Assembly: GCF_001427105.1 (NCBI RefSeq)
Contig: NZ_LMGI01000001.1
Location: 1,054,001 to 1,118,000, forward strand
Source of the DNA: Sphingopyxis sp. Root154
Lineage (GTDB): Bacteria; Pseudomonadota; Alphaproteobacteria; Sphingomonadales; Sphingomonadaceae
Reading direction: 5' to 3'
DNA length: 64,000 nucleotides
The notes below the pieces were generated by a model. That model was not told the DNA's origin. It worked only from the letters and a program-made list of their open reading frames with translations, and searched no databases. Both the position numbers and the translations under genes were made by a program. This document shows positions 29,427 to 34,225 of the stretch, piece by piece. Each line of letters starts with the position of its first letter. The stretch's first letter is position 1.

Positions 29427-30572
29427 TTACGCGACCCGGCCGATGCTTTCGACAGACGACGTCTTCTCGCGGTCGGCGGCTTTTGCGGCATAGAGCGCGC
29501 GGTCGGCGACCTCGAGCAATTTGCGCGCGCTGTCGCCATGCTCGGGCCAGCTGGCGGTGCCGATGCCCGCACCGACGCCGATCGAACGGCCGCCGATGCG
29601 GTAGGGCGCGGCGAGCGCGGCGAGAACATGGTCGGCGAGCGAGGTTTTGAGCAATATCGACCCGGCGGGCACGAGGATCGCGAACTCGTCGCCGCCCTGC
29701 CGCGCGACTACCGCGTGATCGCCGCACGCGCGGCGCAGGCGCTCGGCGAGTTCGCACAAGACGCCGTCGCCGATCGCATGGCCGTGCTGATCGTTGATCG
29801 GTTTGAAGCCGTTGAGGTCGAGCAGCGCGATCGCGAACGGGTTGGCGGCGTCGCCCTTCGCAATCTCTTCGTCGAGCCGCATGTCGAACTCGCGGCGATT
29901 GGCGAGGCCCGTCAGCGGATCGGTGTGCGCAAGGTCGCGCATCTGATGCTGAAGCTGGAGCAGGTCGATCAACTGGTCGTGCTGCTGAAGGATCATACGC
30001 AGGAGGAAGATCGTCGCGACGACAAGGCTGGTGCCCGCGGCGATTTCGGGCGGATTGCCCGAGGTCAGCATCAGGAACGAGATCGGTACCAGCCCGATGA
30101 GCAGGTTGATGAAGGTCGCAAGGCGGATCGACGACAGGCAATAGGCGGTCGCGAGCGAGCCCATCGCCATAATCATCGCATAATAGCTATGTGTCGCGGG
30201 CGACGCGGCGAGCCAGTTGATCACCGTCCAGGCGCTGCACATCGCGCCCGTCGTCCCCGACAGCCACATCGATTCTTTGATCATCCGCCGTGCGCGGCGC
30301 AGGCTCATCCGCCGGCCGCGATTGTGCATCAGGAAGACGAAGCCGAGCAGGCCGATGATCGCGAGTGTGACCGGGAAACCGATACGAACGATCGGGTGAA
30401 CCGTATCGACGCCAGCATAGATAGCGGTCGGGGTTGTCGCCGCCAGCATCAGGAACAGCATCGGGGTCAGCGTTTCGACGCGATTGGCGCGCAGCAAGGC
30501 GACATCGTCCCGAATCGCGTCCGGAATCGGCGGAAAAAAGCGCATGCGCAGCCAGTGATAGACCCCCGTCAT
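29427..30572 (-). CDS. Membrane-bound GGDEF diguanylate cyclase
   Basis: Makes cyclic di-GMP. Residues ~35-195 contain five or six hydrophobic segments (an MHYT/7TM-like sensor of unknown type), followed by the GGDEF domain: DPLTGLANRREFD (218-230), LDLNGFKPINDQHGH (251-264) and the active-site GGDEF at 293-297. The residues before it (ACGDHAVVARQ) do not show a clear RxxD inhibitory site at the usual position, so product inhibition may be absent. It diverges from the lipoxygenase gene across 159 bases. Confidence 0.92.
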   Translation of the reverse strand: MTGVYHWLRMRFFPPIPDAIRDDVALLRANRVETLTPMLFLMLAATTPTAIYAGVDTVHPIVRIGFPVTLAIIGLLGFVFLMHNRGRRMSLRRARRMIKESMWLSGTTGAMCSAWTVINWLAASPATHSYYAMIMAMGSLATAYCLSSIRLATFINLLIGLVPISFLMLTSGNPPEIAAGTSLVVATIFLLRMILQQHDQLIDLLQLQHQMRDLAHTDPLTGLANRREFDMRLDEEIAKGDAANPFAIALLDLNGFKPINDQHGHAIGDGVLCELAERLRRACGDHAVVARQGGDEFAILVPAGSILLKTSLADHVLAALAAPYRIGGRSIGVGAGIGTASWPEHGDSARKLLEVADRALYAAKAADREKTSSVESIGRVA

Positions 30573-30731
30573 AGGGCGGGGATAGCAAGGCCGAGTAAAG
30601 CAGGGGTTAAGGAATGAAAGCTTGTCTTATCACTTACCTAACGGCCTCGTACGGGCGCATGGCTTGCGAAATATTAACCATGTTTGGCGATAGCGACCGG
30701 CGAATTTGTCGCGCCCGACAGGAGCCACGCC

Positions 30732-32720
30732 ATGTCTTATCCGATGCCGCCGTTAACTTCGCCTACCGCTGCGCCGACCGTGCCGATGCCGGCAAGCGAC
30801 CCGACGCTGCCACAGAAAGACGCGCCCGCCCAGCAGGCGGCCCGCGCCGCGCAGCTGACCGCGACGCAGGCCGTTTATACTTGGACGACCGACGTCCCGA
30901 CCTTGCCCGGCGTGCCGCTCGCGACCAGCGTGCCGAAAAATGACGAGCCGACGATCGCCTGGTTCGTGATCCTGATCGGCGTCGGGCTGGGCATCGTGCG
31001 CAACGCACTGACGGTGAAGCTCGGCGGCGTCGACAAGGGTGAGCTCGACAGCCCGCGCGCCGAATATGAAGCCGCTCTCGCCGAATGCGACGCGATCGAA
31101 GCGTCCGCGGCGAAGATTGCGGTCGACCATGGCGTGCATACCGGCGGCAATATTTTCGAGCGCATCGTGGGCGACGTCGAAAACGCCGTCGCCGCCGCCG
31201 AGCGCGATGCGCATGTCGCGCTGCTTCAGGGTTACAAGGACCGGCTCGAAGAGCTGATGAAGGTCGAGGACGCCGACGGGCTCGGCAGCAAGACGGTGCG
31301 CAGCATCGAGGCGTATCGCGCGCTGTTCGCGACGATGCCCGTGCCGGGCGTCAGCTATATGTTCCAGGACGACAGCACCTTCGCGCGGCTGCGCGTCCAG
31401 GGTCCGAACTGCATGCTGATCACCGCAGTCGGCGATGCCCTGCCCGCCAATTTCCCGCTGAGCGCCGCCAAATATAGCGCGGTGGTGAATGGCGACACGC
31501 TGGGCGCCGCGCTTGCCGACGGGCGCCTCTTCCTGCTCGACTACCAACCGCTCGAAGTGCTCGAACCCGGCACCTATGGCTCTCTGGCCAAATATGCATG
31601 GCAGCCGATAGCGCTCTTCGCGGTGCCGCCGGGCGGGTCGTCGCTAATTCCAGTCGCTATCCAATGCGGGCAGAACCCGATCGACCATGCGATCTTCACC
31701 CCCTCGCTCGTCGCCGACAAGCTATGGGGATGGGAAATGGCGAAGTTCGTCGTGCAGGTCGCCGACGGCAATTATCACGAGCTGTTCGCGCACCTCGCGC
31801 GCACGCATCTGGTAATCGAGGCTTTTGCCGTCGCAACGCACCGCCACCTCGCCGAAGTCCACCCGATCTGGGCGCTGCTCGTCCCGCATTTCGAGGGGAC
31901 GCTGTTCATCAACGAACAGGCGGCGACCTCGCTGATCGCGGCAAACGGCCCGATCGACCATATTTTCGCGGGCACGATCACGTCGAGCCAGCTCGCCGCG
32001 GTCGACGCGCGGCTGGCCTTCGACTTCTATGGCAAGATGCCGCACGCCGACTTTTCCGCGCGTGGGGTGGGCGTGGACTCGGCGCTCGCCGATTATCCAT
32101 ACCGCGACGATGCGCTGCTCGTGTGGGACGCGATCCACGAATGGGCGCGGCAATATGTCGACCTTTATTATGCGCATGACGCCGATGTCGTCGCCGACAC
32201 CGAGCTCACGGCCTGGGCGGCGTGCCTTGCGGGCGAAGCAAAGATCAAGGGCTTCGGGCCGGTCACGACGCGCGCGCAGCTTGCCGAAATCTGCACAATG
32301 GTGATGTTCACCGCGAGCGCGCAGCATGCCGCGGTCAACTTCCCGCAAAAGGACATCATGGCGTTCGCCCCCGCGGTCACCGGCGCGGGCTGGCAGGCGG
32401 CGCCCAACGGACAGCGCGGTCACGACAAAGCGGGCTGGCTCGCGATGATGCCGCCGATGGCGCTTGCGCTCGAGCAACTCAACGTGCTCGAACTGCTGGG
32501 GTCGGTGCATTACCGGCCGCTCGGCGATTACCGCAGCAACGCCTTTCCCTATCCTTTGTGGTTCCAGGATCCGCGCGTGACGGGGACCGAAGGGCCGCTC
32601 GCCTGGTTCCAGGCGGCATTGCAGGGCGTCGAGGAGGAGATCGCGACGCGCAATGCGGAGCGGATGCAGCCCTACCCCTATTTGCAGCCGAGCCTGATCC
32701 CGACGAGTATCAACATCTGA
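30732..32720 (+). CDS. Iron lipoxygenase
   Basis: Dioxygenase inserting O2 into polyunsaturated fatty acids to give hydroperoxides; rare in bacteria. With ATG 30732 (GACAGGAG 7 bases upstream) the protein has 662 residues. All five iron ligands of the family are present: H354 and H359 (HLARTH), H532 and N536 (QHAAVNF), and the C-terminal Ile662 (TSINI). The plant/animal blocks AFAVATHRHLAEVHPI and LLVPHFEGT follow the first ligands. By position, A404 (SLIAANG) matches the Coffa-site alanine that favours S products, which is inference. There is no classical signal peptide; the first 70 residues are Pro/Ala-rich and residues 75-92 are hydrophobic, so membrane association is possible. No PLAT domain is seen. 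Confidence 0.93.
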   Translation: MSYPMPPLTSPTAAPTVPMPASDPTLPQKDAPAQQAARAAQLTATQAVYTWTTDVPTLPGVPLATSVPKNDEPTIAWFVILIGVGLGIVRNALTVKLGGVDKGELDSPRAEYEAALAECDAIEASAAKIAVDHGVHTGGNIFERIVGDVENAVAAAERDAHVALLQGYKDRLEELMKVEDADGLGSKTVRSIEAYRALFATMPVPGVSYMFQDDSTFARLRVQGPNCMLITAVGDALPANFPLSAAKYSAVVNGDTLGAALADGRLFLLDYQPLEVLEPGTYGSLAKYAWQPIALFAVPPGGSSLIPVAIQCGQNPIDHAIFTPSLVADKLWGWEMAKFVVQVADGNYHELFAHLARTHLVIEAFAVATHRHLAEVHPIWALLVPHFEGTLFINEQAATSLIAANGPIDHIFAGTITSSQLAAVDARLAFDFYGKMPHADFSARGVGVDSALADYPYRDDALLVWDAIHEWARQYVDLYYAHDADVVADTELTAWAACLAGEAKIKGFGPVTTRAQLAEICTMVMFTASAQHAAVNFPQKDIMAFAPAVTGAGWQAAPNGQRGHDKAGWLAMMPPMALALEQLNVLELLGSVHYRPLGDYRSNAFPYPLWFQDPRVTGTEGPLAWFQAALQGVEEEIATRNAERMQPYPYLQPSLIPTSINI

Positions 32721-32733
32721 CGATCAAGAGCAA

Positions 32734-32780
32734 GGGCGGCGGGCCATTCCGCAATTGGATGGCCCGCCGCCCATTTTCTG
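32734..32780. terminator. Terminator between the lipoxygenase and sterol-desaturase genes
   Basis: Perfect 14-bp stem GGGCGGCGGGCCAT (32734-32747) with ATGGCCCGCCGCCC (32759-32772), an 11-base loop, then ATTTTCTG. It separates two convergent genes and probably serves the lipoxygenase. Confidence 0.8.
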
Positions 32781-32783
32781 TCC

Positions 32784-33572
32784 TCAGGCTGCCTTTTCGG
32801 CCTTGCGCCGGAACGGATGAAGCAGTTGCGACGGGTAGGATGACGGCATTTTTTCGTCGATGCCATAACGCGCCGGGAGTGTCCCGTGCGTCATATTCGC
32901 AGTGCCGAACAGCAGGTCCCAGAAGGACAGTTGGGCGCCGAAATTCCGGTTCCAGGCTTCGGGATGGTCGGCATGGTGCCAATGGTGGAATTCGGGCGAC
33001 GCGATCAGCCAGCGTAGCGGCCCGATGTTGACGCGGACATTGGCGTGCAAAAGCAGTGTATGCCACTGGTAGATAAGCGAGAAGATGAGGATCGATTCCG
33101 CCGTGAAACCGAGTGCGAAACAGGGAATGAGCGACGCGCCCTTGGTCAATATCTGATCGACCGGATGGATGCGATGCGCCGCCAGCCAGTCAAGATCTTC
33201 GATGCTGTGGTGCACCGCATGAAAACGCCAGAGCAGCGGCACGCTGTGAAAGAGACGGTGAAAAGTATAAAAGAGCAGATCGGCGACGACGATCAGTTCG
33301 ATCACCTGCAACCATAAAGGTTGGTCCGCGACCATTGCCCGGAAAACGCCCGGCACGAAGCGTTCGCCGAGCACCATCGCCAGCACGATGATCGCAACCA
33401 GGCCAATGCCGATCGGAACGCGGTTGACGATGAAATAGATGGTATCGGTGACCCACGCCGGGCGGAACATGCGCTGTTCCCTGCGTCGCGGCAGTAGCCG
33501 CTCGAGCGGCAGGAACAACAGCGCGACGAGAAGCAGATTCTGGACGTCGATAAAGCCGAAGAGGAAATCCAT
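32784..33572 (-). CDS. Sterol desaturase/fatty acid hydroxylase family protein
   Basis: Di-iron integral-membrane oxygenase of 262 residues. The His boxes are visible in order: HRLFH, HAVHH and, near the C-terminus, HHWHH, with four hydrophobic segments around them. This family hydroxylates or desaturates lipids such as sterols, carotenoids and sphingoid bases; the substrate here is not predictable. It shares a transcript with the methyltransferase-like gene upstream (14-base gap) and is convergent with the lipoxygenase. Confidence 0.9.
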   Translation of the reverse strand: MDFLFGFIDVQNLLLVALLFLPLERLLPRRREQRMFRPAWVTDTIYFIVNRVPIGIGLVAIIVLAMVLGERFVPGVFRAMVADQPLWLQVIELIVVADLLFYTFHRLFHSVPLLWRFHAVHHSIEDLDWLAAHRIHPVDQILTKGASLIPCFALGFTAESILIFSLIYQWHTLLLHANVRVNIGPLRWLIASPEFHHWHHADHPEAWNRNFGAQLSFWDLLFGTANMTHGTLPARYGIDEKMPSSYPSQLLHPFRRKAEKAA

Positions 33573-33586
33573 CCGCGTGGTCCCGA

Positions 33587-34225
33587 TCAGAAGACGAAGG
33601 GGATCAGCCGGTAACGCACCTTCCGGCTCATGTCCTGATAGGCGGGATCGGCCATCAGCACGCGTTCCTCGGCCATGATCCGCGCGATATTGAGCCCGAG
33701 TGCAAGGCTATAGACCGCGAGGTTCCACCAATTCGGGCCGCTAAGCAGAAAACCGATGTGGGTGAGCGTGTAGCCCGCGTACATGGGGTGACGTACGACG
33801 CGATACGGGCCGCTGACCTTCACCCCGCGGTTCGCGGCGATGACGCCGAAGCTGCGCCGCAGCGTGAATTTGGCGTAAAGCTGGAACATTATGCCCGCGA
33901 TGATCAGGAAACCGCAAAAGGCGAGCGGCGCCAGCGGGTTGTCGCTCGGCGCGATGACGAGCATCGCGGCGAGCGTGCCGCCGAACCCCAGCGCCCAGTC
34001 GAGCGGGCGGAGCGAGATGTCGTTGGTCGACCGGCGGAACAGGACGAAGAAGACCACGCAGCCCTCAGCGAGCAGCAGCAGCCAGTTCTGGTAATGCCCG
34101 TCAATCGCCGACGGGACGAGCCGCGCCGCCAGCGTCGCCAGCAGAAGGACGACGACGACTTTTTCCAAAAGGTCCCAATGGACGACGCTTGTCGCCGGTT
34201 GCGTCTTGCCGTCCGAAACGCTCAT
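33587..34225 (-). CDS. Isoprenylcysteine carboxyl methyltransferase-family membrane protein
   Basis: A 212-residue membrane protein with five hydrophobic segments and the ICMT/PEMT signature GPYRVVRHPMYAGY followed by the C-terminal EERVLMADPAYQDM. Members methylate lipids or prenylated compounds with S-adenosylmethionine. Substrates of bacterial members are mostly unknown. The gene order (this gene, then the desaturase-family gene) suggests both act on one lipid, which is inference. Confidence 0.85.
   Translation of the reverse strand: MSVSDGKTQPATSVVHWDLLEKVVVVLLLATLAARLVPSAIDGHYQNWLLLLAEGCVVFFVLFRRSTNDISLRPLDWALGFGGTLAAMLVIAPSDNPLAPLAFCGFLIIAGIMFQLYAKFTLRRSFGVIAANRGVKVSGPYRVVRHPMYAGYTLTHIGFLLSGPNWWNLAVYSLALGLNIARIMAEERVLMADPAYQDMSRKVRYRLIPFVF

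Follow-up and report, generated by a model that had tools for sequence, protein, structure and literature searches.

The window, that is, the whole 64,000-nucleotide stretch of Sphingopyxis sp. Root154 DNA analysed here, carries a gene for an iron lipoxygenase (LOX) with the following features.

30720 to 30724, plus strand: ribosome-binding-site-like AGGAG, with a 7-base spacer to the ATG at 30732
30732 to 32720, plus strand: iron lipoxygenase of 662 residues, from the open reading frame list, PF00305 and phmmer
31791 to 31808, plus strand: iron ligands H354 (31791-31793) and H359 (31806-31808), kept in 41/41 aligned relatives
31920 to 31922, plus strand: Coffa-site alanine A397, Ala in 41/41 relatives and opposite a Gly in 5lc8
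32325 to 32339, plus strand: iron ligands H532 (32325-32327) and N536 (32337-32339), kept in 41/41 relatives
32715 to 32717, plus strand: C-terminal iron ligand I662, in 40/41 relatives, with one gap
32734 to 32772, plus strand: intrinsic-terminator-like hairpin of 16 pairs 3' of LOX, from a hairpin scan

The LOX reading frame matches PF00305 with an E-value of 4.9e-59 and 200.9 bits, compared to a curated cut-off of 23.6. This is the sole Pfam match at E 0.001, and no PLAT domain was found. The closest solved relative is Pseudomonas aeruginosa LoxA (4g32, 4rpe, 5ir5 and 5lc8), which likewise lacks PLAT and aligns with residues 23-662 at a phmmer E-value of 1e-156 and 525 bits, followed by 8x8f, 5med (presumably from Cyanothece), the animal ALOX enzymes and soybean LOX. 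A fragment search of the solved chains placed A397 opposite an alanine in 4g32 and 4rpe, in line with the Coffa-site alanine of the wild-type LoxA chains, and opposite a glycine in 5lc8, which we take to be the LoxA Coffa mutant A420G. Alanine at the Coffa site leads to S products. In an alignment of 41 LOX sequences, from which L103 and L108 were left out as their frames are not cleanly readable, alanine occupies position 397 throughout and position 404 in 19/41. The frame of L103 (genome G305) has one in-frame TAG and is perhaps a decayed copy. An AlphaFold model of LOX was poor (mean pLDDT of 62 with 27 rows) and was left out of the evidence.

An earlier sequence-only reading of this DNA had described a complete lipoxygenase frame with an ATG at 30732, the five iron ligands listed above and no PLAT domain, all of which the present comparison bears out; its choice of A404, the residue number in human ALOX15, as the Coffa residue was wrong, as A397 aligns with the LoxA position. 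Its prediction of an active enzyme from the ligand set is well supported, and the sequence makes it very likely that LOX encodes an active iron lipoxygenase. Because AGGAG precedes the gene and a terminator-like hairpin follows it (the scanned 2.6 kb holds four such sites versus 2.0 expected), LOX looks like a single-gene transcript; a consensus scan of 30400-33000 found no sigma-70-like promoter.

As an enzyme, LOX belongs to a known kind, with a characterised 9S-lipoxygenase already in the genus. According to the available portions of the sources, an arachidonate 9S-lipoxygenase of S. macrogoltabida has been characterised (Kim et al. 2022, doi 10.1016/j.bbalip.2021.159091), and kinetics on polyunsaturated fatty acids (PUFAs) are tabulated for the double-oxygenating 9S-LOX of that species (PMC12152530). 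The link to Sphingopyxis made by the earlier reading is right at the genus level. Since the genus is the same and the double-oxygenating 9S enzyme has recorded PUFA kinetics, LOX is probably its ortholog, as matched by genus and enzyme type.

Hydropathy analysis confirmed the hydrophobic segment proposed at residues 75-92, with a peak at 75-93 that is distant from the start and sits within the LoxA-aligned part. The description of the N-terminus as unusual was overstated, as LoxA aligns from residue 23 onwards, straight through this segment. LoxA has a signal sequence, whereas hydropathy and inspection by eye, with assumed starts, revealed none in LOX or its readable relatives. The scan flagged 7/69 rows, of which L030 and L101 are mis-anchored, and L077, L079, L098, L015 and L105 are flagged upstream of the assumed start; L119 and L120 offered no stretch that could be used, and the frames of L103 and L108 were unreadable. 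By the same two approaches, LOX is predicted to be most likely cytoplasmic.

The source genome (4.73 Mb in 5 contigs) contains one LOX, compared to 0/14 in the control genomes. Some LOX was found in 24/397 genomes of the family sample and, besides the source genome, in 3/384 genomes of the class sample, of which two are distant and one is marginal. The view that lipoxygenases are sparse in bacteria therefore holds for the class sample but fails within Sphingopyxis, where LOX is present in 36/80 genomes. Across 39 loci, the identity to LOX is 75-94% in Sphingopyxis, 68-72% in Erythrobacter/Porphyrobacter and their kin, and 55-60% in Sphingorhabdus, Parasphingorhabdus and further Sphingomonadales, with one metagenome-assembled genome at 52%. 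Carriage by a plasmid or phage was set aside, with LOX sitting on a 1.22-Mb contig; no relatives were found in phage records, and those on plasmids are distant (<60% identity, 8 records). In one of the plasmid cases, NZ_CP089607.1 of Rhodococcus qingshengii (L149), a LOX of 42% identity directly follows an acyl-ACP thioesterase-domain gene and possibly belongs to a different lipid operon. A second LOX type of 33% identity is present in G132 (L119) and at G203:C45 (L120), has no neighbouring diguanylate cyclase and shows a twin-arginine-like N-terminus by eye; G203 has both LOX types.

On the other side of LOX, a divergent gene encodes a membrane diguanylate cyclase (DGC), from which it is separated by a short intergenic region with two conserved boxes.

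29427 to 30572, minus strand: divergent diguanylate cyclase of 381 residues with six long N-terminal helices and a GGDEF domain, motif GGDEF intact
30573 to 30731, no strand: 159-bp region between the divergent starts of LOX and DGC, from the open reading frame coordinates
30595 to 30612, no strand: DGC-proximal CtrA-like box GTAAAGCAGGGGTTAAGG (TAAA-N7-TTAA), from the N7 motif counts
30673 to 30681, no strand: LOX-proximal CtrA half-site-like box ATTAACCAT, from a conserved block

The most informative feature of the LOX locus, which the earlier reading passed over, is the head-to-head DGC together with the intergenic boxes. Among 71 unique LOX loci, of which the two 33% types (G132 and G203:C45) and two contig-edge loci (L026 and L030) were dropped, DGC is head-to-head with LOX in 62 of the 67 testable ones (LOX identity of at least 49.5%), counts that are not independent as the loci are related and some of the 71 are near-copies. 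Among the matches listed, the pairing holds by coordinates in 36/36 LOX-bearing Sphingopyxis genomes, and in 23/23 genomes with this LOX type, spanning 12 genera, of the 397-genome family sample, for which four DGC candidates were scored per genome. All 61 complete partner DGCs keep the GG[D/E]EF motif.

The order M16, DGC, LOX, purC is common to most Sphingopyxis loci, and since synteny within the genus is conserved, a linkage could not be deduced from the Sphingopyxis counts by themselves. General synteny as the cause is unsupported across genera: in 35 hand-picked representative loci, not counting out-of-frame reading frames that overlap LOX or DGC, LOX occurs in 35 and DGC in 28, compared to 9 for the next real family and at most 7 for the rest. 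A Fisher test of LOX versus DGC within the genus gave 4e-12 among the matches listed, ignoring relatedness. The LOX and DGC distances, for which 38 of the 62 partner DGCs were aligned, correlate at 0.93 over 36 loci, a value equalled in 0/2000 permutations. This correlation fits co-inheritance, though plain vertical descent gives the same, and it does not by itself show function. Overall, a functional link between LOX and DGC appears likely.

Alignment of 27 Sphingopyxis regions revealed two conserved blocks, GTAAA-N-CA-NNN-GTTAAGG by DGC and ATTAACCAT by LOX. In the available text of two reports, the published full CtrA site is TTAA-N7-TTAA and the half site is TTAACCAT (PMC6180460, PMC3692519), and one of the two warns that a CtrA site need not mean regulation. 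The Sphingopyxis LOX-side box is a half site, and in the DGC-side site TAAA replaces the first TTAA. The 64-kb window contains a single TTAACCAT, located between LOX and DGC; on its own it means little, as 24/100 shuffles hold at least one. Counted over 61 paired loci (all 62 except L101, at 49.5% identity), whose regions are related and not independent, TTAACC is present in 32/32 Sphingopyxis and 27/29 other LOX-DGC regions, compared to shuffled means of 2.8 and 3.2, which amounts to 59/61 versus an expectation of about 6. The N7 box (T[TA]AA-N7-TTAA, either orientation) is present in 32/32 Sphingopyxis and 16/29 other regions, compared to shuffled values of 0.3 and 0.4, and is missing in the remaining 13/29 from other genera. 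The source genome encodes two DUF1153 proteins, from what we take to be the family that includes the CtrA inhibitor SciP, and among the control genomes this family is found in 1/14, Caulobacter. From these sequence patterns, CtrA is the candidate binder of the boxes, and its regulation of both LOX and DGC is reasonably likely.

The exceptions to the pairing are five unpaired loci. Four of them form one Erythrobacter/Porphyrobacter clade (support 100/100) among paired relatives, and the fifth, L040, stands apart: DGC is missing both next to LOX and, as an ortholog, from the whole genome, and the 200 bp upstream of LOX lack TTAACC. The four Erythrobacter-type genomes keep a DGC elsewhere at 55-57% identity, the copy in G849 truncated by the end of its contig, and TTAACC remains on the LOX side in 4/4 of these unpaired loci. 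The relocated DGCs keep the N7 box in 4/4 places of 3 genomes, among those with readable upstream DNA. At L151, L152, L153 and L156, in Erythrobacter-type genomes, the box reads TAAA-N7-TTAA, and by eye the neighbouring gene is phospholipase D/cardiolipin synthase-like; G846 has two relocated-type DGC copies. The base of the LOX tree is unclean, as the two 33% types attach, by a very long branch (4.97), to an open fork within the set of paired loci.

DGC also exists without LOX. It is kept at an identity of at least 71% in at least 13/44 LOX-less Sphingopyxis genomes, a count that does not include G434, where DGC is in two fragments, and of the 39 best-scoring DGC places across the family sample, 16 lack an adjacent LOX. 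Twelve LOX-less Sphingopyxis loci were compared (G456, at a contig end, is absent from the set). The flanking M16 and purC genes and the DGC-side N7 box remain in 12/12, and no LOX remnant was detected in any of the 12 (tblastn, E 1e-3). Five of them (L129, L130, L131, L132 and L134) still have TTAACC where the LOX promoter would lie, and this leftover LOX-side box suggests that LOX was lost here, and not that it was gained in the other genomes. Eight further loci without LOX, whose DGC is more distant (35-55% identity), were also compared, one of them (G345) from the same genus; the N7 box is present in three.

Two further genes follow LOX in the window.

32784 to 33572, minus strand: fatty-acid-hydroxylase-family gene, possible accessory, from Pfam and neighbourhood comparison
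33587 to 34225, minus strand: PEMT/ICMT-like methyltransferase, possible accessory, from Pfam and neighbourhood comparison

Among the matches listed, this gene pair follows either LOX or DGC and is also found beside a DGC without LOX (the window, L006, L013, L028, L131, L132 and L136). The hydroxylase was set aside as a core part, as it adjoins LOX-DGC in some genomes only and in two arrangements. Another conserved reading frame lies beside DGC in L033, L034, L036-L038, L111 and L112 and elsewhere in the L032 and L120 loci; by eye, it is acyl-CoA synthetase-like in L120.

The lipoxygenase of P. aeruginosa offers a comparison beyond the enzyme itself. In the accessible parts of one report, loxA lies in an operon with PA1168 and is not described beside a DGC, in contrast to the Sphingopyxis LOX, which is paired with DGC and CtrA-like boxes; the same parts state that loxA is induced in biofilm, and that a compound interfering with c-di-GMP signalling lowers PA1168-loxA transcription (PMC8271024). 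As an expression result from another species, this is compatible, by analogy, with LOX being tied to the c-di-GMP state. P. aeruginosa ImcA (8wcn), a six-transmembrane DGC, has low identity to the Sphingopyxis DGC and answers to an iron-sensing partner, with no lipid input described in the available portion of its account. In the VIA-align alignment of DGC, most rows besides ImcA cover mainly the GGDEF domain and little of the membrane domain. Excerpts of a further report state that oxylipins made by the P. aeruginosa diol synthase change motility and promote biofilm, and its authors place c-di-GMP downstream (PMC5155153). That system differs in its enzyme and in its substrate, oleic acid, and these excerpts mention neither a lipoxygenase nor a paired DGC gene; by analogy, it indicates that settlement can respond to bacterial oxylipins, there made by an enzyme other than LOX. 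In the open-licence literature on lipoxygenase, c-di-GMP and CtrA, as far as its text was available, no account of the LOX-DGC pair was found. A study comparing c-di-GMP genes across five orders of Alphaproteobacteria does not mention lipoxygenase in its main text, and the accessible text of papers that treat lipoxygenase together with diguanylate cyclase or GGDEF yielded only a reference, the loxA expression result, a gene-table row and plant genes.

Where the substrate comes from was addressed by searching the source genome for PUFA synthesis, as the earlier reading had suggested. The search found no PfaA-type PUFA synthase, the best score being 131 bits versus a cut-off of 1010, and three PF00487 desaturase-family genes, all above the Pfam cut-off and far below every NCBIfam cut-off, with arginine hydroxylase as the best model for two and a DesA-family desaturase for the third. 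Because there is neither a PfaA-type synthase nor a near-cut-off NCBIfam desaturase match, the PUFA substrate is probably imported.

Altogether, we lean slightly towards a CtrA-co-regulated module of lipid oxidation and c-di-GMP signalling, composed of LOX and the six-helix membrane DGC. In this module, a cytoplasmic, LoxA-related LOX would oxygenate free PUFA, with algae, plants and debris as the most likely sources. Expression of LOX and DGC would start from the short region between the two divergent genes, where each has a CtrA-type box of its own, so that the two proteins would be made in the same motility or cell-cycle state. The fatty acid oxygenated by LOX, as a hydroperoxide or the corresponding alcohol, or its effect on the membrane might then tune DGC through its membrane domain, and an encounter with polyunsaturated lipid would change c-di-GMP and hence the choice to swim or settle. 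Action of an oxylipin on DGC is a tentative part of this proposal, and its direct sensing is speculative. The complete oxylipin-to-c-di-GMP circuit, in which a LOX product is read by the membrane DGC, both genes are switched by CtrA and the output governs settling at or leaving an algal or plant lipid source, is a doubtful extension.

It is possible, though not probable, that LOX and DGC share nothing beyond the control region, as two CtrA-regulon genes behind a promoter that is costly to split, with LOX serving lipid use or detoxification, DGC serving motility control, and the products acting separately. The two separate boxes, one per gene, would fit such an arrangement, as would the DGC box that stays in all 12 LOX-less Sphingopyxis loci compared, and the Erythrobacter-type clade, in which LOX and DGC are unlinked and both alive, each with its own box. 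However, a mere shared promoter leaves unexplained why a DGC ortholog persists in all four genomes with the broken linkage, and why, among the matches listed, none of the 36 LOX-bearing Sphingopyxis genomes lacks DGC.

Two other roles place the substrate differently. An exported enzyme that oxygenates host lipids and disturbs host signalling is suggested by LoxA, the closest solved relative, which in the available part of its description has a signal sequence, resides mainly in the periplasm with a secreted fraction, and has host lipids as its proposed target (PMC11011848). The named relatives of LOX are instead Sphingopyxis, Erythrobacter/Porphyrobacter and Sphingorhabdus-type records, and the host-lipid attack raised by the sequence-only reading is weakened because neither LOX nor its relatives show a signal peptide after the likely start by hydropathy and eye; we regard this role as very improbable and the earlier suggestion as not supported. 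A membrane-repair or redox enzyme acting on self-made PUFA is also unlikely, if less so: the three PF00487 genes would offer a starting point for such synthesis, but their NCBIfam scores and that of the best PfaA candidate argue against it.

The preferred reading, a module of LOX and DGC under common CtrA control, bears on what bacterial lipoxygenases are for, as the pairing hints at a possible purpose. With a partner conserved in 12 genera, among the matches listed, and a shared control region, the role of LOX becomes directly testable. The module would further suggest a signal to which a six-helix DGC could respond, and would place a metabolic candidate gene in the CtrA network.
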